From IMG/VR virus record IMGVR_UViG_3300025120_000017, positions 1-64,000 of that record: 64,000 bases of DNA. One strand, 5' to 3'. A program made the translations under genes and the position numbers. This DNA comes from a virus. Under the pieces are notes generated by a model. The model did not search any database. It was not told the DNA's origin and saw only the letters and a list, made by a program, of their open reading frames with translations. Shown here piece after piece: positions 713 through 63,669 of this stretch. Position 1 is the stretch's first letter, and each line of letters opens with the position of its first letter.

Positions 713-1318
713 ATGAAAAGTCTTAATTATTTTCTAAAAGAGTCAAGCGGTGACATATTAAAAACCAAAAGAGATAAGTGGGTTAAGTTTGATCCAAAGA
801 AATTATCTGACACAGAAAAAGAAGAACTTAGTAAAGAATTTATAGATCTTATACAAACTGCATATGCACCTATCGGAGGTCATGTTAAATTTACAACAGC
901 TGATGATGTATTTAGCGATAGCTCAATAGAATTTTGGGAAGTAATTGACTTACATGGAACAAATGATGCCGATGTTATAGTTTTTGGTAAAGAAGGTAAG
1001 TTTGGTATTAAGTATACTGGAGTAGGCCATGATGGTGAAAAGGATAGTAAAAGAACATACCTAAACAGTAAAGCAAAAACACTCTCAATGCCTGGTTACT
1101 ATAATGAAGTATCTGGAAAGATTGCGGAAATTATGCTAGGTAAATATAAAGTACCTGCGGTCACTAGTGAAGAAGCTGTTAAGAAAGTTCTTAAGAAAGA
1201 TATTACATGGCATGGTAAACATCCTGATGGTAAAACACCTGGAGATGGTTGGTACAGCAGAAAGATTGCTGGTGGAAATCATACTAAAATATTATTAGGA
1301 AAACCAAAGGGAGTTTAG
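713..1318 (+). CDS. Putative packaged internal protein with capsid-targeting leader, 201 aa
   Basis: The first 11 residues, MKSLNYFLKES, match the pattern of T4 capsid-targeting sequences (T4 internal proteins begin MKTYQEFIAEA), with an L-K-E site at residues 8-10 where gp21 would cut. The remainder is a charged, Gly/Lys-rich globular protein I do not recognise, with a His/Gly-containing stretch near the end. Inferred role: packed into the prohead, trimmed by gp21 and delivered to the host with the DNA. It is a single-gene + strand unit with a late-like promoter in front; its stop overlaps the convergent esterase gene by 4 bases. Confidence 0.65.
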   Translation: MKSLNYFLKESSGDILKTKRDKWVKFDPKKLSDTEKEELSKEFIDLIQTAYAPIGGHVKFTTADDVFSDSSIEFWEVIDLHGTNDADVIVFGKEGKFGIKYTGVGHDGEKDSKRTYLNSKAKTLSMPGYYNEVSGKIAEIMLGKYKVPAVTSEEAVKKVLKKDITWHGKHPDGKTPGDGWYSRKIAGGNHTKILLGKPKGV

Positions 1319-1791
1319 AGATTCCCTTTTTTTAACTTCATTACATATTTTTCAAAAACGTTGAAAGGTGTTCTGTGTCCAATAGGTTCTCTATGTATTT
1401 TAAACTTATTCATTCCTTTATTAATCGACCTCTCTGTTTGGTCTGGTTTTACAACCTTATCAAAGTTACCAAGAACCAAAGTATTCATAGGATATCTTGA
1501 CCCGGTTTTATCAATTTTAGGTTCTATGCTTCTTCCTTGTAATGCAGGATTGAATAGTAATGTAGGGATTCCCATCTTCTTGCCTAAATTATATGCAAAC
1601 CATCCACCCATTGAGCTTCCTATAATATAGTTAGGCCTAAACTTAATAAGATCATTATATATTTTATTCCATATATCTGGCTCACTATAATCAATAACAG
1701 GATCATACACTCTATTAAAGTTCTTTTTTAAAAAAGTGTTTTTACGTCCAATGCCATCAGACTCCAATCCATGCAAGTAAGCAATGTTCAT
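1315..1791 (-). CDS. YqiA-like alpha/beta hydrolase (esterase), 158 aa
   Basis: The start M-N-I-A-Y-L-H-G is the first strand and oxyanion loop of a small alpha/beta hydrolase. The nucleophile elbow I-I-G-S-S-M-G-G carries the likely catalytic Ser, a G-N-F-D-K segment supplies the Asp and I-G-H-R-T-P the His, so the triad looks complete. Order and short length fit the YqiA/UPF0227 esterases. Substrate is unknown; in a phage it could remove acyl groups from host surface or small molecules. The ATG at 1791 is directly followed by this motif, so the start is secure. Confidence 0.75.
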   Translation of the reverse strand: MNIAYLHGLESDGIGRKNTFLKKNFNRVYDPVIDYSEPDIWNKIYNDLIKFRPNYIIGSSMGGWFAYNLGKKMGIPTLLFNPALQGRSIEPKIDKTGSRYPMNTLVLGNFDKVVKPDQTERSINKGMNKFKIHREPIGHRTPFNVFEKYVMKLKKGNL

Positions 1792-1812
1792 AATTATAAT
1801 TATTTTCTATAT

Positions 1813-1917
1813 TTAATCATTATCATTAACATCAGCATTATCATAATTTGATAAAACATACTTGGTCAGCACTCCTAAAATGGTTGTAGCTATGAATAGT
1901 CCGCCTATCATACCCAT
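1813..1917 (-). CDS. Small single-span membrane protein, 34 aa
   Basis: An ORF of 34 codons fills the gap between its neighbours: M-G-M-I-G-G-L-F-I-A-T-T-I-L-G-V-L then T-K-Y and an acidic, Asn/Asp-rich tail. Residues 3-21 form one membrane span with the acidic tail after it. An in-frame stop lies just upstream of the ATG, so no longer form exists. Small holin-like or superinfection-exclusion proteins look like this, but nothing visible fixes the function. Confidence 0.45.
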   Translation of the reverse strand: MGMIGGLFIATTILGVLTKYVLSNYDNADVNDND

Positions 1918-1929
1918 TCTTTTGCATTC

Positions 1930-2187
1930 TTATTTTTTTACTATCTTGGTGTGGTGTAGAGAGTTTCCTAGATTATACAATTCTTTTATAGAATTATTAC
2001 TATTGCTATCTATTATTATCTTTAACGCATCAATTAGCTCATGCGTTTCAAATATTAAGATATCTTCAATATTTTTATTTAGAATATCTCTAAGAAATTC
2101 TAAATCTTCTATTGAAAGTCTACTTATCTCTAGTAGATTACTTAGCTTAATCGTTATTTTCAGTAGCCTCTTCTTCAGCATCAGCAT
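1930..2187 (-). CDS. Hypothetical helical protein, 85 aa
   Basis: Leu/Ile-rich, predicted all-helical, with the pattern L-S-I-E-D-L-E-F-L-R-D-I-L-N suggesting a short coiled coil. The listed ATG lies 41 bases inside the upstream gene; no later ATG exists, so either the overlap is real or a non-ATG start is used. I do not recognise it. Confidence 0.45.
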   Translation of the reverse strand: MLMLKKRLLKITIKLSNLLEISRLSIEDLEFLRDILNKNIEDILIFETHELIDALKIIIDSNSNNSIKELYNLGNSLHHTKIVKK

Positions 2188-2581: not shown

Positions 2582-2748
2582 AGTTGTTTAATTTTTTTGT
2601 TTATGTTTTAAATAGTACAAATCAAATATAAAAAAGAAACTTTAATATTAATACATTATATTAATTATTTTTTAATCATTTTTATCATTTATAAATGATC
2701 TATAATTATCACGATTATTTATTTTATTTATATAAAATTTGAATATCC

Positions 2749-2761: not shown

Positions 2762-2782
2762 TAGTAAAATTAACTTAAGATA

Positions 2783-3277: not shown

Positions 3278-3297
3278 TAAAAGAATGATTTTAAGCT

Positions 3298-3579
3298 ATG
3301 AAAAACTTAAACGAATTTTTAAACGAAGCAAGTAAGATGGATAGAAAAACATTTAATGCTGCTGTTATAGAAATTATACAACAATTACCAAAAAATATTA
3401 TAAAAACTAAAACACAATTCAATAACTTAAAAAGAGAACTGGAAGATATATATGACAGCGGTGACATTAATACCAGAGAGGATATTGATGATAACATAGA
3501 ATTTATTTTAGGAAACCATATAGTCCGCCAAAAAGTTTTAAATGAATTTTTAAACGAGTCTGAAAACTGGAATAAATAA
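3298..3579 (+). CDS. Putative packaged protein with leader at both ends, 93 aa
   Basis: It starts MKNLNEFLNEA, a very good capsid-targeting sequence with cleavage site L-N-E at residues 8-10. Remarkably the C-terminus repeats it: L-N-E-F-L-N-E-S lies about seven residues from the end, encoded by nearly the same DNA (3538-3559 versus 3307-3328). The region between is a short helical domain of unknown function. Either gp21 trims both ends or the second copy is the remnant of a fused neighbouring gene. Confidence 0.6.
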   Translation: MKNLNEFLNEASKMDRKTFNAAVIEIIQQLPKNIIKTKTQFNNLKRELEDIYDSGDINTREDIDDNIEFILGNHIVRQKVLNEFLNESENWNK

Positions 3580-3616: not shown

Positions 3617-4339
3617 ATGAGAGATTTAAATGAATTTATAAACGAGGCTAAAAAAGGAAGAGCCTGGTCTGGAAAGATTAATCAAATAGATGGACTTATG
3701 TCATGGCTATATGATAAAGACATTTTAGGAAAAGGTGAAAAGAATAAGAAAGATTCAATATTTAGACAATATTATAGATATTATAATGATGGTGATTTTC
3801 CGCGTGCTCTTTCTAGTAAAGGAATAGGTAAATATAACCATCCTGATCAGATTGAAAATGCTCTTGAGGAATTGCTTGATGATTTTATTAAAAAGATATT
3901 AACGAAGTATCTTCCTAAGATTAATAGAACAGAGTTTAGATATGACCAAGCATTGTCAGAATTAAAATCTCTTAAAGGAGCAATAGATGATGATAACTGG
4001 CACGGAGTTACTAATTATTGGGGTAAGAGAACTAAAGTTGATAGCCCAGAATTTAATAAATTATTAAGCACTCTTGAAAAGGAATATGTTTCATATAAGA
4101 AATCTGTTGATGATCATATGAAAACCTTAGATCTTTCTAAATATGGAGAGTATTCATTTGAACAGCCTTCATCTAATCACTCAATTAAATCAAATAGAGA
4201 AAAGATGAAAGGAAAGGGTGATTGGCCAAAAAATCTTGAAAAAGGTTATCAGAATCTTGAAGATATTACCAGAGAAATGGGATATAAAGTAAATGATGTT
4301 ATTGTATTTACACAGAGAGCAAAAGAATTATTAGAATAA
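3617..4339 (+). CDS. Putative packaged internal protein, 240 aa
   Basis: The leader MRDLNEFINEA fits the capsid-targeting pattern, with I-N-E at residues 8-10 as gp21 site. The mature part would be about 230 residues, basic and helix-rich, with several W-containing motifs (Y-W-G-K-R-T-K; M-K-G-K-G-D-W-P-K) but no domain I recognise. Probably co-transcribed with 3298-3579. An AATAAATA box at 3571-3578 could give it an extra late start. It ends at a strong hairpin terminator. Confidence 0.6.
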   Translation: MRDLNEFINEAKKGRAWSGKINQIDGLMSWLYDKDILGKGEKNKKDSIFRQYYRYYNDGDFPRALSSKGIGKYNHPDQIENALEELLDDFIKKILTKYLPKINRTEFRYDQALSELKSLKGAIDDDNWHGVTNYWGKRTKVDSPEFNKLLSTLEKEYVSYKKSVDDHMKTLDLSKYGEYSFEQPSSNHSIKSNREKMKGKGDWPKNLEKGYQNLEDITREMGYKVNDVIVFTQRAKELLE

Positions 4340-4702: not shown

Positions 4703-5233
4703 TTAGCTTATGAAAATTCTTTTAATACTATTTGCTTGATTAGGCATTGATTTGATTAAAGATTTAATTACTTTATTCTTATCTGATTTTGATAGCTTAT
4801 TAAATTCTTTAATCTTTTCATTATTAGATTCTGTTGCTTTTTTATATTGTGATCCACTATCTATATAATCTGTAGTGAAATCATAGCTTAATAGGCTTCT
4901 TAAAACCTTTTCATATGGAGATAAGAGCTTATCAGCAAAGTAATTACTTATTTCATATTTACTTGACTTGCGCTTATTTAGGTAAAATTCCCATTCATAT
5001 CTATATGAACCTACTTTATACATATGAACTACGTCTTTACCTATAACTATCTTAAACTTAATTCCTTTATCAGAAGATTCGTCAGATATGCTATCAATGT
5101 CTTTTTTACCATTAGGTAATGCAGGATTTATACTAATTAATGCATCTTCTAATAAATCTTCAGGAGTTCCAAATTTAGATTTAGAGTTTTTATAATCTTT
5201 ATATGATTGATAAAATTCGTTTAAGTACTTCAT
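4703..5233 (-). CDS. Hypothetical protein with leader-like start, 176 aa
   Basis: It begins M-K-Y-L-N-E-F-Y-Q-S-Y, which keeps the M-K-x-L-N-E-F core of the leaders nearby but lacks the x-x-E cleavage site, so it may be a degenerate or unprocessed leader. The body is a mixed alpha/beta protein with a Lys-rich helical C-terminus; I do not recognise it. It overlaps the stop of the upstream gene by 4 bases (coupled translation). Confidence 0.55.
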   Translation of the reverse strand: MKYLNEFYQSYKDYKNSKSKFGTPEDLLEDALISINPALPNGKKDIDSISDESSDKGIKFKIVIGKDVVHMYKVGSYRYEWEFYLNKRKSSKYEISNYFADKLLSPYEKVLRSLLSYDFTTDYIDSGSQYKKATESNNEKIKEFNKLSKSDKNKVIKSLIKSMPNQANSIKRIFIS

Positions 5234-5616
5234 ACTTTAATGATTTTTTGATTTCGACCTACTCTAAATTCAGCTCCTCTATATAAAGTAATAACAACAA
5301 ATGATAGTTCATTTCCTTTCTTTTCCATTATTCCTACAACTGTTAGTCCATCGCCTTCTCTTTGCAAAATAACCCTATCTTTGTTAATATCTGTAGTGTC
5401 ATTAACTAAATCTCTTATGAGTATTTCAGTTGCCTTGCTTATGATAGAATTAACTTCTTTAAATGTAACAGGTTCATATGAAGAATTTCCTTGCTCATCT
5501 TTTCTATTTAGTCTTTTAATTGCATGTGATGTTGACTCTATATCAATATCAAACTTAATCTTTCTAGATATATGACCTTCAGCTTTTTCATTCATTATTT
5601 GTTTATAACTCTTCAT
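5230..5616 (-). CDS. Putative packaged small protein, possibly toxin-fold, 128 aa
   Basis: The N-terminus MKSYKQIMNEK resembles the leader family (M-N-E at residues 8-10, weaker because P3 is Met). The rest has S-H-A-I-K-R-L-N-R, then alternating strands ending in F-R-V-G-R-N-Q-K. The layout is reminiscent of small RelE/BrnT-type RNase folds, but no catalytic set can be assigned with confidence. Function unknown. It is coupled to the following gene. Confidence 0.5.
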   Translation of the reverse strand: MKSYKQIMNEKAEGHISRKIKFDIDIESTSHAIKRLNRKDEQGNSSYEPVTFKEVNSIISKATEILIRDLVNDTTDINKDRVILQREGDGLTVVGIMEKKGNELSFVVITLYRGAEFRVGRNQKIIKV

Positions 5617-8079: not shown

Positions 8080-9069
8080 TTATAAAGGTGATAATGATGA
8101 CTTATATTCTTTAGGATATTCGTTTTTCATATCTTTCCTATGCTTATTTTGTATATCTGTAAGTTCTTTATTAACATCATTTGACATTTTTGCATTATAT
8201 GCCATTTTTAGCCATGCTTCATATAGAACTTTAAAATGTGATGGGCCTATCCCTGGAGCTCCATTAATTTCAGGAACCCATAACTCACCATCATTATCAA
8301 GCATTAGGTCAATATTATAAAAATCTAATTTAACTTTGGTTTCTAATTGCTTTTGAATCTTTTTTATTTTATCCATGTATGGAAATTTATCCATATCTTG
8401 GTCAATATAAATTAAATCTATTTTTTCTTCAGCGTCTTTTTCACCAACTGATTTATCATTTTGTGTATTTGTTATTCTCTCAGCAATTAAAAGAATTTTG
8501 CCATTCATGATAAATGCTCTAAATTCTCTATCAAGATCTTTAGCTTCGCACCAAATATCAAATTCTAAATCAGATTTTTTAGCATCTTCATATGAATCAA
8601 ATTTTTCAATCCCCTGTGCGCTAAATCCTTCAGCAGGTTTAGCAATAATAGGTAATGTAAGATCTTCAATATCATCTAATGAATATACGGTTTTAGGAAT
8701 ACATTCACAAGTATCACCAAGCTCTTTTGAAAATACTTTCTTATCTGCGCTTATTGCATAATCATCTATTTTGTTAAAGATAACAGCATCATCAGATTCA
8801 ATAAAGTCATTAGGAGTAGATGTAAAATTTAAAATAGGATATTCATATGATATTTTATTTTTCCTATTTTCTGGAACATCATCATCAGTATTATAATTGC
8901 TTTCTTTTTTAATAAGAACTAGCCTAATGTATTTTTCATAAAGGCGTTTCATTGCTTTCTTTGTAAAGTCTTCTTCTTTTGAGGTAAGTCCTATGTTACC
9001 TCTCATTATAATTTGCATTGGCATATTATATGAAACTAATTCATTTATGAAATACTTTAAACTTTTCAT
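8080..9069 (-). CDS. ATP-grasp ligase with capsid-targeting-like leader, 329 aa
   Basis: A RimK-like ATP-grasp enzyme, a family that couples ATP hydrolysis to carboxylate-amine ligation. Visible elements: P-I-I-A-K144-P-A-E-G-F-S (phosphate-binding Lys and loop), R-E-F-R-A-F-I-M-N-G central strands, D254 in N-I-D-L-M-L-D, and E267-I-N269-G-A-P-G-I-G, the Mg-binding E-x-N. The first residues, MKSLKYFINEL, match the leader of the packaged-protein candidates (I-N-E at 8-10). The mature enzyme may thus travel inside the capsid. It heads the cluster with the 48-aa protein, GcvH and the GIY-YIG-like protein. Substrate unknown. Confidence 0.75.
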   Translation of the reverse strand: MKSLKYFINELVSYNMPMQIIMRGNIGLTSKEEDFTKKAMKRLYEKYIRLVLIKKESNYNTDDDVPENRKNKISYEYPILNFTSTPNDFIESDDAVIFNKIDDYAISADKKVFSKELGDTCECIPKTVYSLDDIEDLTLPIIAKPAEGFSAQGIEKFDSYEDAKKSDLEFDIWCEAKDLDREFRAFIMNGKILLIAERITNTQNDKSVGEKDAEEKIDLIYIDQDMDKFPYMDKIKKIQKQLETKVKLDFYNIDLMLDNDGELWVPEINGAPGIGPSHFKVLYEAWLKMAYNAKMSNDVNKELTDIQNKHRKDMKNEYPKEYKSSLSPL

Positions 9070-18652: not shown

Positions 18653-21600
18653 ATGGCATTACCGAGTTATTTAACTACGATAAAGTCTTCAGGAGTATAC
18701 ACGTTTGAGTTTGACCAAAGTCAAATCATTACAAGTACTGTTAGTACATTAAGAATGATTATAGGATTTTCAAAAGTTGGTCCATTCAATACGCCTGTTT
18801 TCTGCGAAGACACTAAATTCTTTACTGGCATTTATGGTGAAAGAGACAAATCTCTAGAGAGAAAAGGTTCTTACTTTCATTTATCTGCTTTAGAAATGCT
18901 AAGAGAGTCGCCTATCATTGCTCTAAACCTAAGAGCTCTTAATGATACATTAGACAAAACTGAGTTTATCAGTTACTCTGCAAATGCATCTGAAATTAAT
19001 CAAAATATTGGAAGCGCTCCGCTATCTAAATATTATGATACTTCTAAGTTTTGGAAACTTGATACTGACGAAGCTTTAAAAAATATTAATAATACATCAG
19101 GATATACTAAATCCATATTGAACTTTGCTAATGTTGGTACTAATTCTGTATCTGTTCTTGTAACAAATAAAAAGATACTAGGACTTGACATTTCTGCTAA
19201 AGATTGGTATGGTGAAGGAAATGTTCCTGAATTTATGGATGAACAAGATTACATTAATGATTATGCAGTAAATGTACAAATTATTAAAGGAGATTTTTCT
19301 GATTACCAAAAACTATCAGTAGATCCACTATTTGGAGATTACTTTGATACAAATGGTCTTAAGAAAACTTATAAAGATACAAATGGAAATGAATTTGATG
19401 GTTTAGATAAATTTGTTGAATTAAAAGAAGTTGTTGTGTTATCATCAATAGATGGTGTAATTATACCAAACTTCTTAGATAAAAATGGAAATGAATTATA
19501 CATTCAAGATATTGTAAACTTACAAACAGCATTCACTGGTATATATTGTGCAGTAGATGAAAACTTGTTTGATACTGGTTCAGTAATTTCTGGTAAAGAT
19601 GGAGGTATTGATTTAATTGGAGGTACTATTGATGGAAACACTGTTTCTGTTATTGACTACCTTGGATACTTTGGTACAATTGCTGAAAATCTTCAATATG
19701 CGGATACTTCTCCTTTTGCTGCAGCAGTTTCTCAGACGTTTATTACAAACACTGCTGATAACATTGCCGATGGTGCATATTCAGGAGCCGCAAATGCTGT
19801 TGTGTCATTAACTGATAACACTGCATATACATCAAGCACTGATAAGTATGACACTATTACAGTTTACTCACCGACATCAGTAGATGCAGCAAAACCTACA
19901 GCAAATGCATTTGCTACTGATGCTCTATGGTTAGCATGGGCTCAGTCAATTAAAGTAAGCTCTTCATTTATAAATATTTCTAAAACTTTAGCAGGTGGTG
20001 GGGCCGGTGGAGTTTCAACTAAATCAGTTGTGAAGGATGTTGCTAGGCTAGCAGATAAGGTTATTATCCAATTAAGTGCTGCTAATGAAACTGCTACTGA
20101 AGAATTATTCATAGATGGATCCACTCTCACTACAAGTACTGATTATAATGTACCTACATTTTCTGCAGTTAAGTTTGTGGCAAGTAATGGTGCAAGTGAT
20201 TATTTAGCATCATATGATTCTAGTGCTGGAGTTGATTTTAGAAGTGGTACATTATCAAGTGGGGATGAAGTTAAAGTAGGAGCATCATCGTTTGAAGTTT
20301 TTACAGTTGTTTCTGCTCAAGGAGATGGAAATGCAGATGATCTTGATACTCTTTTAGGATCTGAGGTACTTTCACACAAGATTACGTATTATACATTTAA
20401 CGCACAGTCAAGTATTACTACTCCGTTAAGTTTTAAGTCAAAAGCAGGAAACATTAATCAGTCATTCACTGTTGTTAAAGTTAATGACTATGAATTTACT
20501 ATTGATAATTCAAGTGGTTTATTCACTGGTAACATTAAACCAGAGGATTTTATTATGAGAGGATTTGAAAATGGTGCAACATTCACTAACATTGATTCAC
20601 GCACAGGTAATACAAGATATACAAGAATTATTTCAGTAAAAGAATCTACTGCTACTATAACAGTTAAGACAAAGGACCCAATTTACTTTACTAATTCTAA
20701 CACATCTGTTGAGAGATATAAATCAGTTCAAAACTTTGTAACTAATTATCAATTTACTAAGCTTGATGGATTTACATTAAGACCTGACACAATGCCTAAT
20801 GGGCAAGCAACAAGACAAGGTGAAATATTAAGTACATTAGTAAACACTGGGTTATTTAATGCTCTTGCAGATAAAGAAGCAATATCATTTAGATATGTAA
20901 TAGATACATTTGAAGGTACAATAGAACCAGGTACTAAAAACATATTAAGTGACCTTTGTAAAACTAGACAGTTTGCTTTTGCTATTCTTAATAGCCCAAG
21001 TGTTAAACAACTAAGTGAATCTACAAATCCACTGTTTAAATTAAATGCACAGTCAAATTATAGCGCTAGGTATATATCAACTGGAGGAAACCAAGAGTTT
21101 AATCCAAGTAATACATTATCATTGCCTACTATTCAACAAGGTGCAAATTATGCAGGTTACTTCCACCCGAATTTAATTCTTAAAGAAGGTGCATCTGTTA
21201 AAACAGTACCACCTGCTCCATATGTTTCAAATAACTTTATGGAGAAGTATAGAACTGCTCAGCCATATTCAATTGTAGCTGGTCCTAGAAGAGGAATTAT
21301 TGCAGGCCAGAATATAACAGGTGTTGAATATGTTTATGATAGAAATGGACTTAATTCACTTGAGCCATTTGGGTTTAATGTAATCTTGCCTAAACAAGGA
21401 TTAGGATTAGTAATTAATTCAAACCAAACAGCACAACAATCTGTTAAGTCAGCATTATCTAAAATACATGTAAGAGAATTATTAATCTATATTGAGGAAG
21501 AGGTTGAAAATATCTTAAAAGGTTACCAATTTGAATTTAACACAGTTCAAACAAGATTGGAAATTAAAACTCTAGTAGATGGATTCTTATCGCAAATACA

Positions 21601-35191: not shown

Positions 35192-36364
35192 TTATGATTT
35201 TAAGAAATGTGATAATGGTTTAATACGAGATTCGCCTAACTTTTTAAGATCCTCTTTTGCTTTCTTTTCATCTTTTTTGAGCTCAGCAATATCTTCCTTA
35301 TTGTCATCAATAAGTTTCTTTTCTTTTTGAATTAATTGTGTAAATTTATCAGTATCTGTTGCTGATTTCTTTTTATCTTCTAATTCTTTAATCTTTTCGT
35401 TAGAAGAATCAATATCCTTTTGTGCTTGTTCAGCTGCATCATTATATCCTTTAATGTCTGCCTCTAATTTACTTCTAGGATCATCATCTTTAGGTTCTTC
35501 TTTAGGTTCTTCTTTAGGTTCTTCATCTTTAGACTCACCATCTTCAGCAGATTTAGTTAAAGGTTCAGTATCTTTAGACTCATCATCTTCAGCAGATTTA
35601 GTTAAAGGTTCAGTATCTTTAGACTCACCATCTTTATCGTCATCTTTAGCAGAATCATCTTCTGCTTTCTTTACTGCGTCTTTTGCATCTTTATTTGTAA
35701 TAGGCTCACCATCATCATCGGTTTTTTGCTTAACCTCTTTTTCAATACTACCAATCTCTGCAGCAATTTCTCCGATTTCTGATTTTATACTAGCAATTTC
35801 AGAATTATATGCTCTTACATTTGCCATAGAAACTTGAAACTTCTTATGTAATTTAAAAAGACTTAGTTGATATTTTAACTTAGCATACTTTTCATATTTT
35901 GAAACTACTGGAGATTCTTTCTTTAGATCATCAAGAGGTTTCTTTACTTTATCATCTATTGATTTAATTGCTGCATCATATGATTTTTTTAATGCAACTC
36001 TTTCTTTATCTTTTATTTCAGATTCTTTATCATTATCACTTATGCTTTTTGACTTTTGTACATAATTTTTTGCTGCTTGGTCATATCCTTTATACTTAGC
36101 TTTAACTAATTTACGGCCTCTTAGAACATTTCTAATGTCTTTAAAAAGACCTTCGTTAATAAACCCGTTAGATTCTAATAAAAGGTCATTAATGCTCATT
36201 TCTATATTAGATTCGCAAAACGTATCAACACCTGCAGGTGCAATAATATACAAATATGCTGCTAGCCACTCTGCTTTAGTATACTTATCATATTCTGGGC
36301 AAGATCTATTCAAGAGAAATGTTTCATTCATTTCTTCATATTGTGATATATTTAAAAGCATCAT
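35192..36364 (-). CDS. Coiled-coil, repeat-rich protein near the capsid genes, 390 aa
   Basis: Residues 1-90 are a small globular region containing L-L-L-E-S-N-G-F-I-N-E-G, with two possible gp21 sites (L-x-E, I-x-E). Then come long coiled coils, an acidic middle with a 15-residue repeat (S-K-D-T-E-P-L-T-K-S-A-E-D) and a second coiled coil. The C-terminus ends L-S-H-F-L-K-S, resembling the leader. Acidic, helical and next to head genes, it could be a prohead core or internal protein. No known family. Confidence 0.55.
   Translation of the reverse strand: MMLLNISQYEEMNETFLLNRSCPEYDKYTKAEWLAAYLYIIAPAGVDTFCESNIEMSINDLLLESNGFINEGLFKDIRNVLRGRKLVKAKYKGYDQAAKNYVQKSKSISDNDKESEIKDKERVALKKSYDAAIKSIDDKVKKPLDDLKKESPVVSKYEKYAKLKYQLSLFKLHKKFQVSMANVRAYNSEIASIKSEIGEIAAEIGSIEKEVKQKTDDDGEPITNKDAKDAVKKAEDDSAKDDDKDGESKDTEPLTKSAEDDESKDTEPLTKSAEDGESKDEEPKEEPKEEPKDDDPRSKLEADIKGYNDAAEQAQKDIDSSNEKIKELEDKKKSATDTDKFTQLIQKEKKLIDDNKEDIAELKKDEKKAKEDLKKLGESRIKPLSHFLKS
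35526..35630 (-). repeat. 45-bp tandem repeat in the coiled-coil gene
   Basis: Copies begin at 35526, 35571 and 35616 (the last partial), exactly 45 bp apart, encoding a 15-residue unit. The neighbouring Glu/Pro codons (about 35490-35525) are a shorter E-E-P-K repeat. Confidence 0.8.
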
Positions 36365-37641: not shown

Positions 37642-39327
37642 TTATGCCCAGTATCCATCAACTAAATCGGAAACTCCGAATGTTAAGTACATTGTTTCTG
37701 GGTGGTGACCTGCTCTAACTAATGCATATCTAGATTTGATAGCAATTTTTGGAGCCATAGTACCTTCAGCAATTGTCTCAACAGTATCAGCCATAATATA
37801 AGGCATGAATACTAAACCAGGAGTTTGACCATCACCTTTTCTACCAATAGCAATTCTTGTATCTCCCCATTCCATGTTAGGATCAACATAGATAGCAAGA
37901 CCAGCAAGATTACCAATTGGGTAAAGTGCGCCAGCAACTTGGTTTATTGTATTAGCGATTGGTGCAGCAATAAATCCAGCACAGTCTTGTAAACCTGAAG
38001 CAGTTTGAGCAGAACATACTGCAAACGTAGCAGGTCCTCTTCTTCCTCTAACAGAAACCATATTTGATGCAGCAAGAATTCTTGACATCAATCTTCTCTG
38101 TCTAGTTGAAAGGTTTTCAGCACCTGTGTTAACTGCATCAACTTGAGTAACTGAAGTACCTGCGCCAAAATACATAAATGATGGAGTTGAAACCTGAGCT
38201 TCTGTACCTACAGTTAATGTTGCAGCAGTAGCACCTAATACTAAGTGAAGTGATACACCAGATGTTGCAGTGATGTTAGCGTGATTAATTTTACCTAGGT
38301 CAAAAATGTTTCCTAAGATATCCTTATTCACGTTTTGAGTTAATTCATTTGCTAAGATTTGGTTTACTTGAGCAACAGCATCAATACCAAACTGCTTTAA
38401 ATCCTGAACTTGCTCTCTTGTTACAGCTGCAGCAGCTTGAACAGTTTTAGCCTCAACAGATTTACTGAATAATGTAATGTTCATTGTATTATCTGGAGTA
38501 GTTTCTCCTTCTAATCTTGACATTGCATCAGTTGAATCATATCGGTTACTTGAGAATCCTTGAATATGATCTTCTACACCTTTTACTAATTCTGCTTTAG
38601 AAATAATCTTTGTTGTAGCACTTGCACCAGTAACAGCAATTGCAGTTCCACCAACAGCAGTGTTAGCAGGAATAGCATCAGCAACTGAGTAATTTACACC
38701 AGCTGAATCAACCAATACTTCTGGCAATTTGAAAATTGCAAATCCATCAATTCTAGACTGACCTAAGAATGTAACAGATAAAGTACCTGTACCTGTTCCA
38801 GCAGGAATAGTATATGCAGTGTTAGCAGCTACACCTGTATAAACATCAAGTTTAGCTTTAATGAAAATTGGAGAATTTTTACCATCTCCAGCAGTTCCTG
38901 CAGGATATAGTGAATTTTGTGGAACATAACCAGCTTTACCACCAGCATAAACAAAATCCATGTAAGAAAGCATTCCAACAGGACCGTTCATTGGGATAAC
39001 AGGTACTAATTCCAATCCAATAGTTTGTGCAGCAACTTGAATTGCTAATGGAAGTAATGAATAAGGAACATCACCTGAACCTGTATCACCAGTACTCCAT
39101 CCATTACCAGGATTTTCAGGTAATGATACAGCACCCATACCATTTACAGATGCTTTATGTGCGAAAAAGTTATTTTCATTTAATGAACTGCTAGCTCTCT
39201 GAGCTTCGTAGTTCTCTTGGATTTGCAATGCTTTAGACATCCATCCAAGTTTGTGTGCAGGTACTTCTCCAACAGTTGATTCTACAACTGGCTTCCAAGT
39301 TTGCATCAATTTTGACTCGTTTAACAT
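37642..39327 (-). CDS. 23: Major capsid protein (gp23)
   Basis: The precursor of the main shell protein. T4-type features: the N-terminal delta region with W-K-P-V-V-E-S, then a gp21 cleavage site S-L-N-E51 (mature protein would start near N52), and downstream P-L-A-I-Q-V, L-V-P-V-I-P-M-N-G-P-V-G-M, E-Q-V-Q-D-L-K, G-R-R-G-P and the C-terminal R-A-G-H-H-P-E. Length 561 (T4 521), with a Ser/Ala/Gly-rich insertion near 180-230. It lies just after the gp21 fusion gene, as in T4, and ends at a strong terminator. Confidence 0.95.
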   Translation of the reverse strand: MLNESKLMQTWKPVVESTVGEVPAHKLGWMSKALQIQENYEAQRASSSLNENNFFAHKASVNGMGAVSLPENPGNGWSTGDTGSGDVPYSLLPLAIQVAAQTIGLELVPVIPMNGPVGMLSYMDFVYAGGKAGYVPQNSLYPAGTAGDGKNSPIFIKAKLDVYTGVAANTAYTIPAGTGTGTLSVTFLGQSRIDGFAIFKLPEVLVDSAGVNYSVADAIPANTAVGGTAIAVTGASATTKIISKAELVKGVEDHIQGFSSNRYDSTDAMSRLEGETTPDNTMNITLFSKSVEAKTVQAAAAVTREQVQDLKQFGIDAVAQVNQILANELTQNVNKDILGNIFDLGKINHANITATSGVSLHLVLGATAATLTVGTEAQVSTPSFMYFGAGTSVTQVDAVNTGAENLSTRQRRLMSRILAASNMVSVRGRRGPATFAVCSAQTASGLQDCAGFIAAPIANTINQVAGALYPIGNLAGLAIYVDPNMEWGDTRIAIGRKGDGQTPGLVFMPYIMADTVETIAEGTMAPKIAIKSRYALVRAGHHPETMYLTFGVSDLVDGYWA

Positions 39328-39344: not shown

Positions 39345-40979
39345 TTAATGATTTGTTTTGAAGTTTTTATTATAGCCTTCAACAATTCTTAGTCTTCTAG
39401 CTGCTATTGCATTTTCTACTTCCTCAGCAGTTTTTTGCACTGGCATCTTTGAAGATTCTTTAATCATTTCAATTGTAGTGTTAGCAAATGTTGCATTCCA
39501 AAATTCTGTAACAGAACTTTCAGTTAGAAATTCACAAATTGTAGCTCTTTTAACAATTGATGATTTTTTAGATTCAGATAATGCTTCCCATAATTCTGTG
39601 TATTTTCCTGGCATCATTGATTTCCAGAAAGGTTCCTCAGTTTTATTAAACTCATTTTCCTCTTTTACTAATTCTTGTTTCTCTTCAGCTTTTTGCTTCT
39701 TAGCATCATCGATAATAGAATCAATTTTTTTATATAATCCAGTTATATATGTTTCAGATAAAGAAACATCAACTTTCTTTTTACGTTTTATTGGATTTTC
39801 TGTAAGTGCGCCTTCTTCTAATTTTGTTACAACATCAGTTGCTTCATCAGACCACTTCTCAATCCCAGTAACAGTTTCAGTAACATGTTCAGACCAATCT
39901 TCGATTCCTGATACAGTTTCAGTAACATGCTCAGACCAATTTTCGATTCCTGATACTGTAGTAGTTGCTTCATCGGACCAATCTTCGATTGCAGTAACAG
40001 TTTCAGTAACATGTTCAGACCAATCTTCGATTCCTGATACAGTTTCAGTAACATGCTCAGACCAATTTTCGATTCCTGATACAGTTTCAGTAACATGCTC
40101 AGACCAATTTTCGATTCCTGTTAGTTTATCTTCAAGAACTTTAATTCTATCAGATTCTGATTTAATTGTAGTGAACTCTTCAACTACATGATTAGACCAA
40201 TCCTCAATACCTTTAATCTTATCATTAATTAAATTTATAGATTCCTGTAATACATTACTATTGATATTATCAGCAATTTCATCATTTTGCTTAATAATTG
40301 CATTTTGTGCTTTCTGTAATTTATCAAGGTTTTCTTTAAGAGAATCAATAGTTTCTTTAGTGTATTTTGTAAATCCGTTAAGATCATCTTCAGATATAAA
40401 CTTCTGGTTATCTATTACAGGCTTCTTAGATAATTTAGATTCTGCAACTTCATACATAAAAAAGTTTGAAGATTTTGCATTTTCAATACCATAAGATTCG
40501 TTAACTGTATTTAATACTGCATTTTCAAATCCAGGGTCTGCAACTAAATCATATGTAAATAATTTATGAATCTTTACAGACTTATCTTCAGTTACTGTAC
40601 CTGCAGCTCTTGATGATATATGAAGAGGTACTCCTGCATCAACTAATGCCTTTGCATTTTTTCCTGCATCTGTATCAAGTAACTTTATTCTACCGTATAC
40701 TTTATTATCTTTTTCATCAAACCAAATTTTCTCTATAACATGAGAAGAATTTTTTAAGCTTGTTTCAAAAACCTTAGGGTGATCTAATTCACCTACAGCT
40801 TTACCTTGCTCAACTACCTTTTGTAATTGTGTTAAGTGAGGTAAAAAACCATCCTTAGTATAAATTCGACCATTTCTATTTTCTTCACCTAACTCAGTAA
40901 ACATACCCTCAAGTGTATAAGGATCAGATGTTTTCCCAATACTGGTTGATGATTTTTCTACTAATAATAATTCTTTCAT
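39345..40979 (-). CDS. 21: Prohead protease (gp21) fused to scaffold-like region, 544 aa
   Basis: Residues 1-175 are the T4 gp21 serine protease: G-E-L-D-H67-P-K and H-I-S-S-R-A-A-G with the Ser at 122/123 are the catalytic signatures, cutting after L/I-x-E. Residues 190-544 are acidic, helical and coiled-coil, with seven 14-residue repeats (288-385) and several possible self-cleavage sites (e.g. F-L-T-E-S). In T4 the scaffold gp22 is a separate gene between 21 and 23; here no separate gp22 is present, so this gene appears to supply both. A late-like promoter with a run of ATAAATA boxes lies upstream. Confidence 0.85.
   Translation of the reverse strand: MKELLLVEKSSTSIGKTSDPYTLEGMFTELGEENRNGRIYTKDGFLPHLTQLQKVVEQGKAVGELDHPKVFETSLKNSSHVIEKIWFDEKDNKVYGRIKLLDTDAGKNAKALVDAGVPLHISSRAAGTVTEDKSVKIHKLFTYDLVADPGFENAVLNTVNESYGIENAKSSNFFMYEVAESKLSKKPVIDNQKFISEDDLNGFTKYTKETIDSLKENLDKLQKAQNAIIKQNDEIADNINSNVLQESINLINDKIKGIEDWSNHVVEEFTTIKSESDRIKVLEDKLTGIENWSEHVTETVSGIENWSEHVTETVSGIEDWSEHVTETVTAIEDWSDEATTTVSGIENWSEHVTETVSGIEDWSEHVTETVTGIEKWSDEATDVVTKLEEGALTENPIKRKKKVDVSLSETYITGLYKKIDSIIDDAKKQKAEEKQELVKEENEFNKTEEPFWKSMMPGKYTELWEALSESKKSSIVKRATICEFLTESSVTEFWNATFANTTIEMIKESSKMPVQKTAEEVENAIAARRLRIVEGYNKNFKTNH
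39825..40118 (-). repeat. Seven 42-bp tandem repeats in the gp21/scaffold gene
   Basis: Each 42-bp unit encodes G-I-E-[ND]-W-S-x-x-[VA]-T-x-T-V-[ST]. Units 2-4 and 5-7 are related as 126-bp blocks (…ENW…, …EDW…, …W-S-D-E-A…), showing a higher-order duplication. The 14-residue period equals four helical turns. Confidence 0.92.
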
Positions 40980-41039: not shown

Positions 41040-42686
41040 TTAGAAGCCTAAATCCAAATCTGTATCAGGTTTACTATCTTTTTCGCTATCTTCACCTTCG
41101 TCACCTTCTTTATTATTTGTATTTATTTCTTCATCTTCTTTAGTCTTTAATTGCTCATTAAGGCGGATTTCATCTTCTGTCATTTTTAAATACTTTTTAA
41201 CAAGGTATTCATTAGAGAAGTATCTAACTTCATTACCTTCTTCATCAAAGTCAACTAATGAATCTTTAGCAGATGATATAACATCAATTCTTGCTTTAAA
41301 CATTTCCATTTCTTTAATTTCTTCAAATACATCATATTTAGACCAATCTAAATAAACATCAGCATCAAAGCTTGGGTCATCTTTAAGTTCTATAATATCT
41401 ACTTTAGTTTGTAATATAGTAGGCTTGACTAAAATTTCTTGAAATTGTGCTCGTATTCTACTTAAAAACCGCTCAAAATATATTTCTTCTCTGGTATATC
41501 CTTCAGGTGAAGATTCCCATGTAGGAGATTCATCTTTAATAAATCGGTTTTTAGGTAATTTAGAAACTGATATTAATTTATCTCTAAAGTATTCTAATTG
41601 ACCTGTGTCTGATAAATCAGGACCTTCACCGCCAATGGTTTCAATCTGTGGAGTTCCACTATCACCTTCAGGAACCCAATATTCTTTATTGAACGGTAAC
41701 ATTGGTTTACCATTAACTTCTAATTCACCGCTATCTGTATCAAAATTAATGTTTTCTCTATATGCTTGCATTAAGTTAGATACTGTTTGCTTTGCAATGT
41801 TTTTAGATTTACCTGCTACAGGTATAATAAATTTAGTTTTATATGAAGAATTTACAACAGACCAAATAATTCTTGACTGTTCCATGATTCTTAAAAGATT
41901 AAATGATCTTACAAGCCTTTCAGCATATGAAATTCTACCTTCGCTATTAATTGCAGAATATGATAATAAAATAACCTGGGAATCATTAAGTTCTCTAGCT
42001 TTAATAGGATCATTATCATATTGGATCCAACCTCTTGTACCATCTTTAAACACTTTAGGTGTTAGTGAAATTGGATCAAGTTCTTTAAATCCAATAATAT
42101 TCTTATTAGATCTATCCCAAATAATTTCAAATGATAGGTAACCATCTACTGCATATTTTTTACCATAATGCCATGCAGTATTTTCATTCTTAAAGCCGAA
42201 CATTCTATACATCTTTCTAAAATTAGAAGATAGCGTTTCATTAATTCGTTTTCTTTCTGATTTTTTTATATTAAGATCTTCTTCCCATTTAATATTAGCA
42301 AAGTATTTCTTTGTGTCATACACAATTAGTTCATCTACAAGAATATCTAAAATTTGTTCAATTTCATCTTGTAAACTATATTTTCTTAACTGATCTCTTT
42401 TAGCAGGATATTCCTGGTCAAAAAATGGAATGTTCTTTTTGCTATAAACATCTGCAGCTGCAAAATTATAAAGATCATTTAAGTCAACATTATCTTGGCC
42501 GTATCGAAGAAGTGAATTGTTTTGTTGCCATCCTAATTCATTTTCTAAACTACCAATAGCCTCAGAGTTTAGTATAACAGAATCCTTATAATCAAATCCT
42601 TTCCCTGCAAGATTTCTTAGTGAAGGTGAGTTAAATGTACTCCCTCCAGTTTTTATTGTTTTTAAGCTTTTATATATACTTGCCAT
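41040..42686 (-). CDS. 20: Portal vertex protein (gp20)
   Basis: Forms the dodecameric DNA gate. The T4-type core is clear: R-x-x-Y-x-x-Q-D-E-I-E-Q-I-L-D-I-L-V-D-E, N-x-x-W-H-Y-G-K-K-Y-A-V-D-G-Y, and in the clip/stem region E-Y-W-V-P-E-G-D and P-K-N-R-F. Length 548 (T4 524). The acidic C-terminal tail is variable. Order portal, protease, capsid is as in T4. Confidence 0.93.
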   Translation of the reverse strand: MASIYKSLKTIKTGGSTFNSPSLRNLAGKGFDYKDSVILNSEAIGSLENELGWQQNNSLLRYGQDNVDLNDLYNFAAADVYSKKNIPFFDQEYPAKRDQLRKYSLQDEIEQILDILVDELIVYDTKKYFANIKWEEDLNIKKSERKRINETLSSNFRKMYRMFGFKNENTAWHYGKKYAVDGYLSFEIIWDRSNKNIIGFKELDPISLTPKVFKDGTRGWIQYDNDPIKARELNDSQVILLSYSAINSEGRISYAERLVRSFNLLRIMEQSRIIWSVVNSSYKTKFIIPVAGKSKNIAKQTVSNLMQAYRENINFDTDSGELEVNGKPMLPFNKEYWVPEGDSGTPQIETIGGEGPDLSDTGQLEYFRDKLISVSKLPKNRFIKDESPTWESSPEGYTREEIYFERFLSRIRAQFQEILVKPTILQTKVDIIELKDDPSFDADVYLDWSKYDVFEEIKEMEMFKARIDVISSAKDSLVDFDEEGNEVRYFSNEYLVKKYLKMTEDEIRLNEQLKTKEDEEINTNNKEGDEGEDSEKDSKPDTDLDLGF

Positions 42687-44721: not shown

Positions 44722-45309
44722 CTATTTTTTATGAGTATATCCTAACTTAGACATTCTCTCATGATCTTCAGGTTTTTCTGCTTTATATGCTTTTCCTGTT
44801 TCAGTATCATACATCATATGGGGTTTAAACTCTTTTTCATTAGTTTCACCTGCAACACAATCATCACAGTCTTCATCATAAGAGCTATGTACATCACATG
44901 ATTCATTAACTACAGATTCAAATATCCATTGAGCAAGTTCCTCACCTTCCATAGATTTCATTACATTAATAATATCCTCAGCTACATAATTAAGCTCATC
45001 CCATATTGCAAATCTACCTAAATCCTCAGTAAAAGTTTCTCCATCAGATACATTAACTGTAAATGTTGTATCAGGTTTACCTTCACTGCCATCTCTACCC
45101 CAATCATGCGCTATCTCTAAAATAAATGAGTTTGCACGTTGTTTGAATTCATATGTAATTGTTCTTGAATACTTATCAACTCTAAATTTAGCTAATTTTA
45201 CTTTATATGGTTTAAGCTGTTTAGCTAATTCCTTGCTAACACCATTCCAAAAACCCTTATCATTATATGATTCTTTTGATTCATTTAAGAACTCTCTATA
45301 TCCTTTCAT
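44722..45309 (-). CDS. Putative packaged internal protein, 195 aa
   Basis: Leader MKGYREFLNES, a good capsid-targeting sequence (Y at position 4 as in T4), with L-N-E at 8-10. The mature part has a beta-rich middle (I-T-Y-E-F-K-Q-R-A, T-F-T-V-N-V-S-D-G), a possible metal-binding cluster C-D-V-H-S-S-Y-D-E-D-C-D-D-C and a basic end. Function unknown. TATAAAATA at 45324-45332 is a late-like box. Confidence 0.65.
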   Translation of the reverse strand: MKGYREFLNESKESYNDKGFWNGVSKELAKQLKPYKVKLAKFRVDKYSRTITYEFKQRANSFILEIAHDWGRDGSEGKPDTTFTVNVSDGETFTEDLGRFAIWDELNYVAEDIINVMKSMEGEELAQWIFESVVNESCDVHSSYDEDCDDCVAGETNEKEFKPHMMYDTETGKAYKAEKPEDHERMSKLGYTHKK

Positions 45310-45323: not shown

Positions 45324-45332
45324 TATTTTATA
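45324..45332 (-). promoter_or_regulatory. Late-promoter-like TATAAAATA
   Basis: On the minus strand TATAAAATA, one insertion away from the T4 late box, 15 bases before the ATG at 45309. Confidence 0.3.
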
Positions 45333-45903
45333 TGGTTATAGAATTAAGCATTTCTTCTTTTCTAAATACTAAACTTCTTGGATCATCAGAAAGAGCAAAG
45401 GTAGTACTGTACATAGCGCTAAGCTTAGCACCAATATCTTTACCATTTTTATCAGTTACGATATATTCTTTAAATGCATTTGATGCTCTACCAAAGTCTT
45501 TAACAGTATAAACATTAGTGTCTGTGTTAAACTTAGAACCAATCTTTATTTTATTGAAGATTTTAGTTCCAAGCATGCTAATTTTGCTTCCAGATATATC
45601 TGCTTCATTAACATGCTTTGCTTCATCAAGTAATTCTTCTTTATCAGCCAAGAAATCATTCAATGAAATTCTAATTGCATTCAAATCATCTTCTGCTTCA
45701 TCAATTAACCTTTTGTGTTCTGGTACTTTAACATTTCTTGTTTTTGCAAGTACTTCTTCATGACAAGTATCAATTAACCCCCAAATTTCTGAAATTGTAA
45801 TAATATCTTTCTTATCTTTCTTAGAAAAATTCTTAGACTTCTTTATTTGTTTGATAGTTTCTTTGTCGTAATTTTCATTTAAAAAGCTTTTATAACTCTT
45901 CAT
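45328..45903 (-). CDS. Putative packaged internal protein, 191 aa
   Basis: Leader MKSYKSFLNEN with L-N-E at 8-10. The rest is Lys-rich and helical in the first half (S-K-N-F-S-K-K-D-K-K-D) and a small beta domain in the second (V-Y-T-V-K-D-F-G-R-A). Several L-x-E/I-x-E triplets follow. It is between two other virion-protein candidates in a late-type block. Confidence 0.65.
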   Translation of the reverse strand: MKSYKSFLNENYDKETIKQIKKSKNFSKKDKKDIITISEIWGLIDTCHEEVLAKTRNVKVPEHKRLIDEAEDDLNAIRISLNDFLADKEELLDEAKHVNEADISGSKISMLGTKIFNKIKIGSKFNTDTNVYTVKDFGRASNAFKEYIVTDKNGKDIGAKLSAMYSTTFALSDDPRSLVFRKEEMLNSITI

Positions 45904-60193: not shown

Positions 60194-60195
60194 TT

Positions 60196-61530: not shown

Positions 61531-61531
61531 A

Positions 61532-62197
61532 TTATTTTTTGTCTACATAATGTGGAAGTCCTTTTTCCTTAGTCTTTGCAAACTTTCTTAACGTTTTTTC
61601 AGGAAGCTCAGAAATTTTAATAATTTCTTCAGCATATTCAGGTTCTAATTCTTCTTTTGTTATATTGCCTCTCTTATATTGAAGTGCAATAGCAAATAAC
61701 CTTCGCTGTGCTTTAGAATCAGCTCTCTCAAGCAAAGAATCTAAATTTTCCATAACTTCTATGCCAGTTTTAGATTCAATAAAATCTTTAACCATTTTAT
61801 AAAACTCTTCTCTATCATCAGAGTTTTTAAGTAGTTTAGCAGCGTCTCTTAATTTACTTTTAAGTATAGTAAACATCATTCCCATTTTTTCTGAAACTTC
61901 ATCTAGTGTATCTGATACACCTTCGGTTAAAAACACAACACTATCATTAGATGAATTATCTAACTTAAGTCTATATTTCTTAACAGCAGAATCAATGACT
62001 TTTTGAATGTCTGGGTATTCAGCGCCAGCTTTAACCAATTCATCTATACTTATTATGAGAGTATCTTTTTTATTACTATCATCTATGTATATTTCAAATC
62101 CTTGGGTAAACTTTCCTAACTTTTTTTCTATAGTTTTTTTAGCATTTTCCAAAGATTCATTAATATTCACGGAATAAAAATTATCAAGATCTTTCAT
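61532..62197 (-). CDS. Hypothetical helical protein with leader-like start, 221 aa
   Basis: Begins M-K-D-L-D-N-F-Y-S-V-N-I-N-E-S: the M-K-x-L-x-x-F core is followed by I-N-E four residues later than usual, a possible gp21 site. The rest is helical (L-G-K-F-T-Q-G-F-E-I-Y, then many E/K helices). It may be a prohead core or internal protein. No family recognised. Confidence 0.55.
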   Translation of the reverse strand: MKDLDNFYSVNINESLENAKKTIEKKLGKFTQGFEIYIDDSNKKDTLIISIDELVKAGAEYPDIQKVIDSAVKKYRLKLDNSSNDSVVFLTEGVSDTLDEVSEKMGMMFTILKSKLRDAAKLLKNSDDREEFYKMVKDFIESKTGIEVMENLDSLLERADSKAQRRLFAIALQYKRGNITKEELEPEYAEEIIKISELPEKTLRKFAKTKEKGLPHYVDKK

Positions 62198-62206
62198 TTA
62201 CTAATA

Positions 62207-62464
62207 TTATTTTTTTACAACCTTTGCAATAACTTCTTTATTACCAGCTACTATTGCTTTATGTTCTGATCTATTAATACTATATGACTTTCCGTCAATT
62301 ATAACATTTTTTTGGTTAAGAGATTCAACTTTTAAATCACCAGAAGATTTAGCAGGTTCAGGAATTACTGTTTTAGATTCTTCTTTAGAACCTTCAGTAG
62401 TTTCAACATTCTTTAACTTCTCAACAGCCTCGTCTAAAGTTTTTTCAGTTTTCTTTTTAGCCAT
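62207..62464 (-). CDS. Small charged hypothetical protein, 85 aa
   Basis: A Lys/Glu-rich, probably disordered N-terminus (residues 1-45), then a short beta unit (V-I-I-D-G-K-S-Y-S-I-N). It lies in a tight group between the two neighbours. Function unknown. Confidence 0.55.
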   Translation of the reverse strand: MAKKKTEKTLDEAVEKLKNVETTEGSKEESKTVIPEPAKSSGDLKVESLNQKNVIIDGKSYSINRSEHKAIVAGNKEVIAKVVKK

Positions 62465-62475
62465 AACGTGTATTT

Positions 62476-63669
62476 TTATTTTTTGTTTTTAAATTTTCGC
62501 CAATCACTAAAACTATAATAGTTTTCATTTATAGTTTCTTTAGCAATCTTTGAATGTATTAGCCTTACATAATTATTTATATACTTTTTCATATTTATAT
62601 CTATAATTGGAGTAATTTTTTTACGCTCTTTTCTAAATGATGAAAATAGTATTTTATAAATATCTGCAAGATTTGGGTTATTATTAATAATATCTTGTAT
62701 TTTTTTATTCTTTATAAATGATGTATTAAGTTTAAACTCAGGCATTAAAGCAAATGTAGGTTTCTTTAAATCAAAGTCTTCTATAAAAATAGAATTATCA
62801 TCTATGAACATTGATATTAATGTACTTAATAAATCTATATATCTTTCATCAGGACTACTTCCTATTGCATTTACCTTTGTCATTGAATCAGTTTCACCAA
62901 GCCATTCAATGAACTTATATATCAATAATCCTATTTCATCTGATGAAGATTTATTAACTTTTTTATGTAATGATAGTTGATGAAATATCGGATCTATAGT
63001 TTTTGCTGTGTAAACTTTATCATTGTTGCTAAACTCAAATATAAAACCTTCAATAGATTTGTCAATGTCTCCATTTAATGTAGTTTTCTTTAATCTAGGA
63101 TTTAAAATTTTAATAATATGTCGTGTAAAACTATTTGTGTTAAAACTAATCATTAAATCAGACTTATCAGTTTTTATAAAATTCAAAATCTTTTCTTTTT
63201 GTAATTCGCTTAACTCTCCATTAAAATACACTTTAGGTGTAGATGTTTTAAGAAGTTTTGACCACTTAAGAAGTGTTTTAGTGTCATTTATAATAGAATT
63301 ATCATCTTTATCTTCTAATCCTATTAGATGTGTTAATATAAGTCCATTCTTAGGAATATTTTCATATATAACATTAGTAGGCTTATTATTATAAAAATAT
63401 TCAAAAAAGAAGAATACTTCATCAGGAATTTTTGATAAATCTAATGAATTTATATGAGCAATAGGCTTTTCATATAGAGATGTTATAGTTCTTTGTATTT
63501 TATTAAGAGGATATCTCTTATCTCTAGCAAAAAATATTAATTCATTGTTGCTTTTCTTAAATCCAAATTTAGTTCCAGTAAGTTTTTCAGATACTTTTAC
63601 ATTTGAATTAAGAAGTTGCTTCAGAAAGTCTTCACCTAGTTCGTTATAGAAATCTTTTATTTCCTTCAT
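62476..63669 (-). CDS. Ligase-like nucleotidyltransferase, 397 aa
   Basis: V-S-E-K29-L-T-G32-T-K-F-G-F resembles nucleotidyltransferase motif I (K-x-x-G), S-I-E-G-F-I-F-E-F motif IV and Y-T-A-K-T-I-D motif V, so it looks like a divergent ATP-dependent DNA/RNA ligase. The Asp of K-x-D-G is replaced by Thr, so activity is not assured. It begins M-K-E-I-K-D-F-Y-N-E-L, close to the packaged-protein leader but with Y before N-E. It would be a second ligase besides gp30. Confidence 0.5.
   Translation of the reverse strand: MKEIKDFYNELGEDFLKQLLNSNVKVSEKLTGTKFGFKKSNNELIFFARDKRYPLNKIQRTITSLYEKPIAHINSLDLSKIPDEVFFFFEYFYNNKPTNVIYENIPKNGLILTHLIGLEDKDDNSIINDTKTLLKWSKLLKTSTPKVYFNGELSELQKEKILNFIKTDKSDLMISFNTNSFTRHIIKILNPRLKKTTLNGDIDKSIEGFIFEFSNNDKVYTAKTIDPIFHQLSLHKKVNKSSSDEIGLLIYKFIEWLGETDSMTKVNAIGSSPDERYIDLLSTLISMFIDDNSIFIEDFDLKKPTFALMPEFKLNTSFIKNKKIQDIINNNPNLADIYKILFSSFRKERKKITPIIDINMKKYINNYVRLIHSKIAKETINENYYSFSDWRKFKNKK

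Follow-up and report, generated by a model that had tools for sequence, protein, structure and literature searches.

In phage T4, the prohead protease gp21 cleaves after L/I-x-E. The T4 internal proteins (IPs) IpI to IpIII join a short leader, M-K-x-[YFL]-x-x-F-[IL]-x-E, to bodies that are not homologous. In the IPIII leader, targeting depends on residues 4 and 7 and processing on residues 8 and 10 (PMC9026906). Ip1–3 are injected anti-restriction proteins, each of which blocks a GmrSD (type IV) restriction enzyme, and T4 relatives together have at least 10 IPs (PMC12373910). Here, we describe a leader family in the virus record IMGVR_UViG_3300025120_000017 (IMG/VR; 171,834 bp), of which bases 1–64,000 are the stretch analysed, referred to as the window; the record-wide scans took in about 213 open reading frames (ORFs). 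The family shares with the T4 IPs the functional positions of the leader, the unrelated bodies, a gp21-type protease, and a predicted cut after [LI]-x-E. It differs in scale, as T4 has three IPs, whereas this one record has 13–23 candidates and relatives have up to 15 in 42 kb. It also differs in having two leader types that barely mix, internal sites that would give two-module precursors, and exchange between lineages at the leader, or tag. All four of these features are new relative to T4, and no earlier account of them, or of the leader family in these phages, was found in the open-access literature searched. Very probably, the leader serves, like that of the T4 internal proteins, as a capsid-targeting propeptide, and its bearers would be cargo that is packaged, cleaved, and injected.

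The strict leader is found on 13 of 213 ORFs across the whole record, 6 of them in the window (713, 3298, 3617, 8080, 44722, and 45328) and the others beyond it, all on the minus strand (63761, 65787, 75751, 104095, 108326, 149233, and 150108). The six in the window are those listed by the original prediction, which had been made from the letters of the window, and all six are present. When residues 2–31 of each N-terminus were shuffled, the mean was 0.016 strict matches (at most 1 among 1000 shuffles); an expectation scaled from the matches at internal positions is 0.04. A degenerate DNA pattern of the leader matches the record 13 times; the reversed pattern matches once. A relaxed N-anchored signature that leaves the cut distance free, M[KR]x[LYIF]xx[FY], is present in 23 of 211 genes (0.84 expected) and recovers three of the four cases that had been called weaker. 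A weight matrix trained on relatives' leaders alone, with T4 and the window genome excluded, gives scores of at least 8 to 15 genes here (0.00 expected). The record carries the leader on about 15–20 otherwise unrelated proteins. The bodies were said to be unrelated, and within this genome no mutual relatedness is found among them. The earlier count of "at least six, perhaps ten" packaged proteins agrees with the six strict leaders of the window, but for the genome it is an underestimate, given the 13 strict and 23 relaxed matches.

The leader genes of the window are listed below, with a slash marking the predicted cut and lengths in amino acids (aa). For minus-strand genes, the original prediction cited the 3′ end, and the leader lies at the high-coordinate end.

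713–1318, plus strand: leader protein, 201 aa; leader MKSLNYFLKE/S at 713–742; body with a predicted GNAT acetyltransferase fold.
3298–3579, plus strand: leader protein, 93 aa; leader MKNLNEFLNE/A at 3298–3327.
3617–4339, plus strand: leader protein, 240 aa; leader MRDLNEFINE/A at 3617–3646.
4703–5233, minus strand: weak candidate; MKYLNEFYQSY, with L4 and F7 present and no regular cut site.
5230–5616, minus strand: leader protein, 128 aa; leader MKSYKQIMNE/K at 5587–5616.
8080–9069, minus strand: leader protein, 329 aa; leader MKSLKYFINE/L at 9040–9069.
44722–45309, minus strand: leader protein, 195 aa; leader MKGYREFLNE/S at 45280–45309.
45328–45903, minus strand: leader protein, 191 aa; leader MKSYKSFLNE/N at 45874–45903.
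61532–62197, minus strand: probable leader protein, 221 aa; MKDLDNFYSVNINE/S, with L4, F7, and an INE cut at residue 14.
62476–63669, minus strand: weak candidate; MKEIKDFYNELGE, with only I4 and F7 and with LGE at residues 11–13.

The four weaker cases are of unequal quality. Orthologs of 5230 in several relatives have the leader, with the junction E/KAEGH or E/KSEGH. The 61532 protein has the INE cut, and its DUF3008 module, which follows an internal SLLE/RADSKAQRR, is found directly behind the leader in relatives. The other two hold up poorly, 4703 for want of a normal cut site and 62476 because it has only I4 and F7; a homolog of 4703 in contig G008 bears a true leader, MKNIPTFESFVNE/YQTY.

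The leaders compare closely with those of T4. In the 13 strict leaders, with conservation by position taken in the relatives, the conserved positions are 4, 7, 8, and 10, i.e., those mapped in T4. Run on 275 T4 ORFs, the relatives-only profile finds IpIII (9.2), IpII (9.2), and gp61.1 (8.3), with 0.04 expected at scores of at least 8. It misses T4 IpI. IpI, MKTFKEFTSTTTPVSTITE/A, has F4 and F7 and is cut at residue 19; thus, the spacing between F7 and the cut is not fixed. An S77 protease, gp20, and gp23 co-occur in the window genome (PF03420, PF07230, and PF07068), as follows.

37642–39327, minus strand: gp23-type major capsid protein, 561 aa (PF07068, 1e-36).
39345–40979, minus strand: gp21-type prohead protease, 544 aa (PF03420, 1.4e-11; phrog_207, 1e-41).
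41040–42686, minus strand: gp20-type portal protein (PF07230, 8.8e-59).

The protease has an N-terminal S77 domain and a long predicted coiled-coil part, and it is the sole S77 match in the record. The capsid protein has the pro-site SSSLNE/NN (L49–E51, at 39175–39183). In 54 of 54 distinct relatives, this pro-site is [LI]-x-E/[NS], the same ending as that of the leader, and this invariance establishes the likely local cut rule without reference to the leaders. The claim that gp21 and a capsid S-L-N-E site lie in the same window and that the cut rule fits is upheld. The likeness to the T4 IPs, which had been proposed from the N-termini, holds at each sequence-level test that gives a clear answer: residues 4, 7, 8, and 10, the PF03420 protease, the 54 capsid sites, the profile that finds IpII and IpIII, and the effector-like domains of the cargo.

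Some observations on T4-like genomes and on the head genes are added here. In T4 (AF158101), gene 61.1 (18966–19130; L217) encodes a protein that starts MKTFKEFIKE/D and ranks third by profile, after IpIII and IpII; gp61.1 may be an unrecognised T4 internal protein. Cyanophage P-SSM2 (NC_006883) has the leader-like starts MKSFKQFLEE, MKSFSQFLTE, and MKSLSQFIIE at 100269, 158143, and 169737, respectively, so the tag may be more widespread among T4-like phages. The protease at 39345–40979 has 544 aa compared with 212 for T4 gp21, its long C-terminal part weakly matches coiled-coil families, and the protease of Chryseobacterium phage MA9V-2 is annotated at 1207 aa; the protein is possibly protease and scaffold in one. 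Near the capsid genes, 35192–36364 encodes a K/E-rich protein of 390 aa with INE/GLFKD at residues 69–71, separated from gp23 by a PhoH-like gene; it is a possible gp22-like scaffold.

DNA searches of phage records, near and distant, gave almost nothing, and relatives were sought by protein and IMG/VR searches. The named phages closest in capsid protein are mainly Bacteroidetes phages (Prevotella Lak, PAU, Tenacibaculum, Chryseobacterium, and Flavobacterium phages); the host record of PAU is Sphingomonas. The family of the major capsid protein numbers about 540 contigs. A search of related genomes for the leader had been suggested as a check, and relatives do carry it: on IMG/VR contigs, as many as 15 of 75 genes within 42 kb bear the 10-residue leader, with control matches almost nil. 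Clustered by body, the 128 leader proteins on 14 such contigs form 67 groups (body clusters); 43 are singletons, and most are without any known domain. These counts are not independent because several contigs are close strains. Body homologs that fail the strict pattern mostly keep a variant leader, such as MKKITEIINE, MNNLKHFLTE, or MSKLRKFINE. The cultured relative MA9V-2 carries the leader on four genes; mature N-termini predicted for it include ANSFNTD (MA9V2_205) and AKRNENL (MA9V2_208). Other T4-like genomes tested have 0–4 leader matches each. PAU, a distant relative, has one DNA-pattern match with no profile score above 4 around that match, and its capsid-gene stretch has one marginal profile match (4.0), MKTLTSLLFESYN. 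The RaK2 proteomics literature does not report a common internal-protein leader.

Sister lineages, with capsid proteins about 50% identical, have a tag of 13 residues, M-K-N-[LI]-x-x-[FY]-x-x-F-[LIV]-N-E/[SAG]. This tag retains positions 4 and 7, and the cut has moved three residues, about one helical turn. The 13-residue pattern has 12–20 matches per record in several relatives and 0 in the reversed control. At the gene level, the two types barely mix. That is, 14 contigs have only the 10-residue type, and contigs G010, G008, G007, and G006 each have 14–21 tags of the 13-residue type and at most 1 of the 10-residue type. Orthologous bodies wear the tag type of the genome in which they reside. 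The 713 protein has MKSLNYFLKE/SSGDILK, and its counterpart in G007 (13-residue type) has MKNLKTYDSWLNE/SSGDLLK; likewise, 5230 has MKSYKQIMNE/KAEGH, and its G010 ortholog (13-residue type) has MKNIPTYNQFKLNE/KAEGH.

A body that lies directly behind the leader in one phage often sits inside a longer protein of another. In 10 of 15 such module families, [LIVMF]-x-E is found exactly at P3/P1 of the internal boundary, and in 12 it is within one residue (background 2.8%; binomial p about 9e-13 for 10/15). Because the leader had been trimmed from the query bodies, the alignment could not have been driven by the site. For example, MKALNEFLNE/GFESEGKSL of G019 and ELKESINE/GFESEGKSL of G025 are 98% identical. 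In the window, 45328 has two modules divided by an internal HVNE/AD (V98–E100). Its first module, MKSYKSFLNE/NYDKETIKQ, is 87% identical to the module behind an internal site in G015_23326, VNSGLNE/NYDKETIKQ, and its second is 80% identical to a stretch of G010_82488. The 44722 protein has an internal VVNE/SC (residues 133–136), followed by a C-terminal module in common with a G010 cargo protein, and 3298 has a second leader-like copy near its C-terminus, VLNEFLNE/S (residues 80–87, about 3535–3558). In the G010_54955 protein, FVNE/S is a candidate cut site. The simplest reading is that the internal [LIVMF]-x-E sites are cut sites between cargo units; some cargo thus looks like a cleavable polyprotein. 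As a separate observation, G000 has two clusters of leader and leader-like genes (149233–156428 and 61532–67842), in which several genes (at 152623, 153516, and 64770, all minus strand) have repeated ESxVNE[SAG]-like sites and resemble multi-unit precursors.

T4 Alt and the other gp21 substrates (gp22, gp67, gp23, and gp24) share the protease family and the L/I-x-E rule with the system described here; T4 core proteins are known with more than one cut each, and Alt is cut at both ends. In contrast, the pieces flanking the internal sites here are cargo modules in their own right, each of which occurs alone in other phages. Polyvalent proteins are also multi-module and proposed to be injected with the DNA (Iyer et al. 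2017, PMC5512222), and in one relative the leader is followed by the ART-PolyVal domain (PF18760). A peptidase domain of their own is thought to release the modules of polyvalent proteins, whereas here separation by the prohead protease at short sites is predicted, and the window proteins mostly have one or two modules. Two-module precursors were seen here, but no self-processing peptidase domain turned up in the cargo proteins that were scanned.

Cargo genes appear to be exchanged between lineages. When the 10-residue contigs are compared with the 13-residue contigs, identity of at least 85% over 120 bp or more is found in only six regions, four of which are cargo genes. G016_31930 and G010_40617 are 98.6% identical over 572 bp, from base 16/25 of the respective genes to 5 bp past the stop. 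G029_8686 and G010_46574 are 93.5% identical over 448 bp, from base 13/22 to the stop, and G000_153516 and G010_54955 are 95.5% identical over 288 bp that start at codon 305/11 and reach the first gene's stop codon. G024_34329 and G010_1916 are 89% identical over 326 bp, from base 22/55 onward and beyond both stops, and here the G010 leader is elongated and aberrant. The homology clearly starts inside the leader or at the cut site in three of the four genes, and it ends at or just past a stop codon in three of the four. Where the start falls in a leader gene, it lies at base 13–31, or at base 55 in the aberrant leader. No further homology was found within 1.5 kb on either side. Comparison with the relatives suggests that the proteins are interchangeable cargo that is delivered together with the viral DNA and that phages trade precisely at the tag. 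Since recombination would fall within or next to the tag, an acquired body would carry the local tag form.

The cargo bodies include enzymes. Structure prediction of the bodies, also proposed earlier, gave an acetyltransferase-like fold for 713: the AlphaFold model has a predicted local distance difference test (pLDDT) of 88.5, with the leader as a low-confidence helix at residues 4–12, and the top Foldseek matches of the body are all acetyltransferases, at a probability of 0.99–1.0 but a template modelling (TM) score of only 0.4–0.5. The body of 8080 is an ATP-grasp ligase domain (R2K_3/Dala_Dala_lig_C; PF14243 and PF07478), and 150108, beyond the window, has a DUF5824 domain. In relatives, the cargo domains are ART-PolyVal (3e-20), GNAT (2e-10), DUF3008, and cytidylyltransferase-like (nucleotidyltransferase) enzymes; an ART is encoded on L165. 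Comparison with PHROGs gave no function for most leader proteins, and a homolog search of phage records detected none for the body of 3617. The enzymes (ATP-grasp, GNAT, ART, and nucleotidyltransferase) would fit host-directed roles. Two leader-tagged cytidylyltransferase-like (PF01467) enzymes are at L272:10639–11217 and L278:9679–10257, and PF01467-related domains also open large proteins of 621–1006 aa (MAKEDIIKKDI...) in contigs with the 10-residue tag. A further leader protein, L165:8272–8679, has an AHHMTI motif suggestive of a 2H phosphoesterase, with no Pfam match, and is a candidate for cyclic-nucleotide cleavage. The giant phages phiKZ and SPN3US are similar in having many delivered internal head proteins processed by a prohead protease. 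They differ in that several SPN3US propeptides exceed 100 residues, far longer than the T4 capsid-targeting sequence (CTS), and no short common tag is reported (PMC5694885).

We propose the following course of events. Leader residues 4 and 7 would dock the new protein onto the prohead core, and the gp21-type protease would cut after [LI]-x-E, freeing mature cargo inside the head. Polypeptides with further [LIVMF]-x-E sites would probably be cut into two or more cargo proteins. The cargo would be packaged with the DNA, enter the next host cell at infection, and there counter host defences or reprogram the host, and its genes would move by recombination within or beside the tag. With considerably less assurance, we lean towards a broader proposal, namely general effector delivery, in which a lineage-recoded tag is joined to any acquired gene, polyproteins are chained, at least 20 proteins are injected per virion, and distant phages share one cargo pool.

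Some points weigh against delivery of the leader proteins. Virion proteomics was found neither for this phage nor for its relatives, and no TATAAATA (the T4-type late promoter) was found upstream of the leader or capsid genes, although this phage's own consensus may differ. It could also be that some of the leader proteins belong to the core and, instead of being delivered, are cut to pieces and lost. Finally, the 327–329-aa proteins (8080, 63761, and 108326) or the 500-aa ones of relatives would need to pass the portal, probably unfolded.

The alternative that survives best accepts core targeting and gp21 cleavage but takes many of the proteins to be assembly or core components, like T4 gp22, gp67, and gp68, that are degraded or serve as DNA-condensing filler. 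T4 core proteins are indeed cut into several fragments by the same protease (PMC9026906), some proteins here have multiple internal cut sites, and in MA9V-2 one leader gene is found between those for the portal and the protease, where T4 has gp67/68. Conserved core proteins, however, would not be expected to show the hypervariability of the 67 body clusters, and the cargo is exchanged between lineages and includes enzyme domains. The T4 proteins with this leader, Ip1–3, are injected (PMC12373910). We consider this alternative unlikely. Less probable still is a leader that addresses a non-capsid target (an intracellular compartment, a membrane, or the ribosome) or acts as a regulatory degron, its likeness to the T4 CTS being convergent. 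Such a role would be compatible with a clade that lacks virion data and with the promoter result, but all four functionally mapped T4 positions match, T4 IPs are picked up by the relatives-only profile, the tag has the same [LI]-x-E ending as the capsid pro-site of the clade, and module boundaries inside proteins fall at an [LI]-x-E-type site, which an N-terminal address tag alone would not explain. That the shared N-terminus is conserved as DNA (a recombination or translation-start element) can hardly be right, even though the breakpoints of transferred genes fall in the leader and some leaders of one genome have almost the same DNA, since codon agreement (0.69 within a genome and 0.67 between genomes) is little above the 0.61 expected from codon usage, yet peptide positions 4, 7, 8, and 10 are fixed, and in the 13-residue type the same peptide logic is written in different DNA. 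The leader codons are almost as free to vary as codon usage would lead one to expect, so conservation acts on the peptide.

Most injected phage proteins have unknown functions, and with bodies that have nothing in common they are difficult to spot. With a readable tag they can be listed: the 67 body clusters of the 14 contigs become candidate first-minute weapons against bacterial defences. The tag types, internal sites, and breakpoints bear on what the core reads in the tag and on how phages gain injected proteins, and the tag could serve to load chosen proteins into such capsids.

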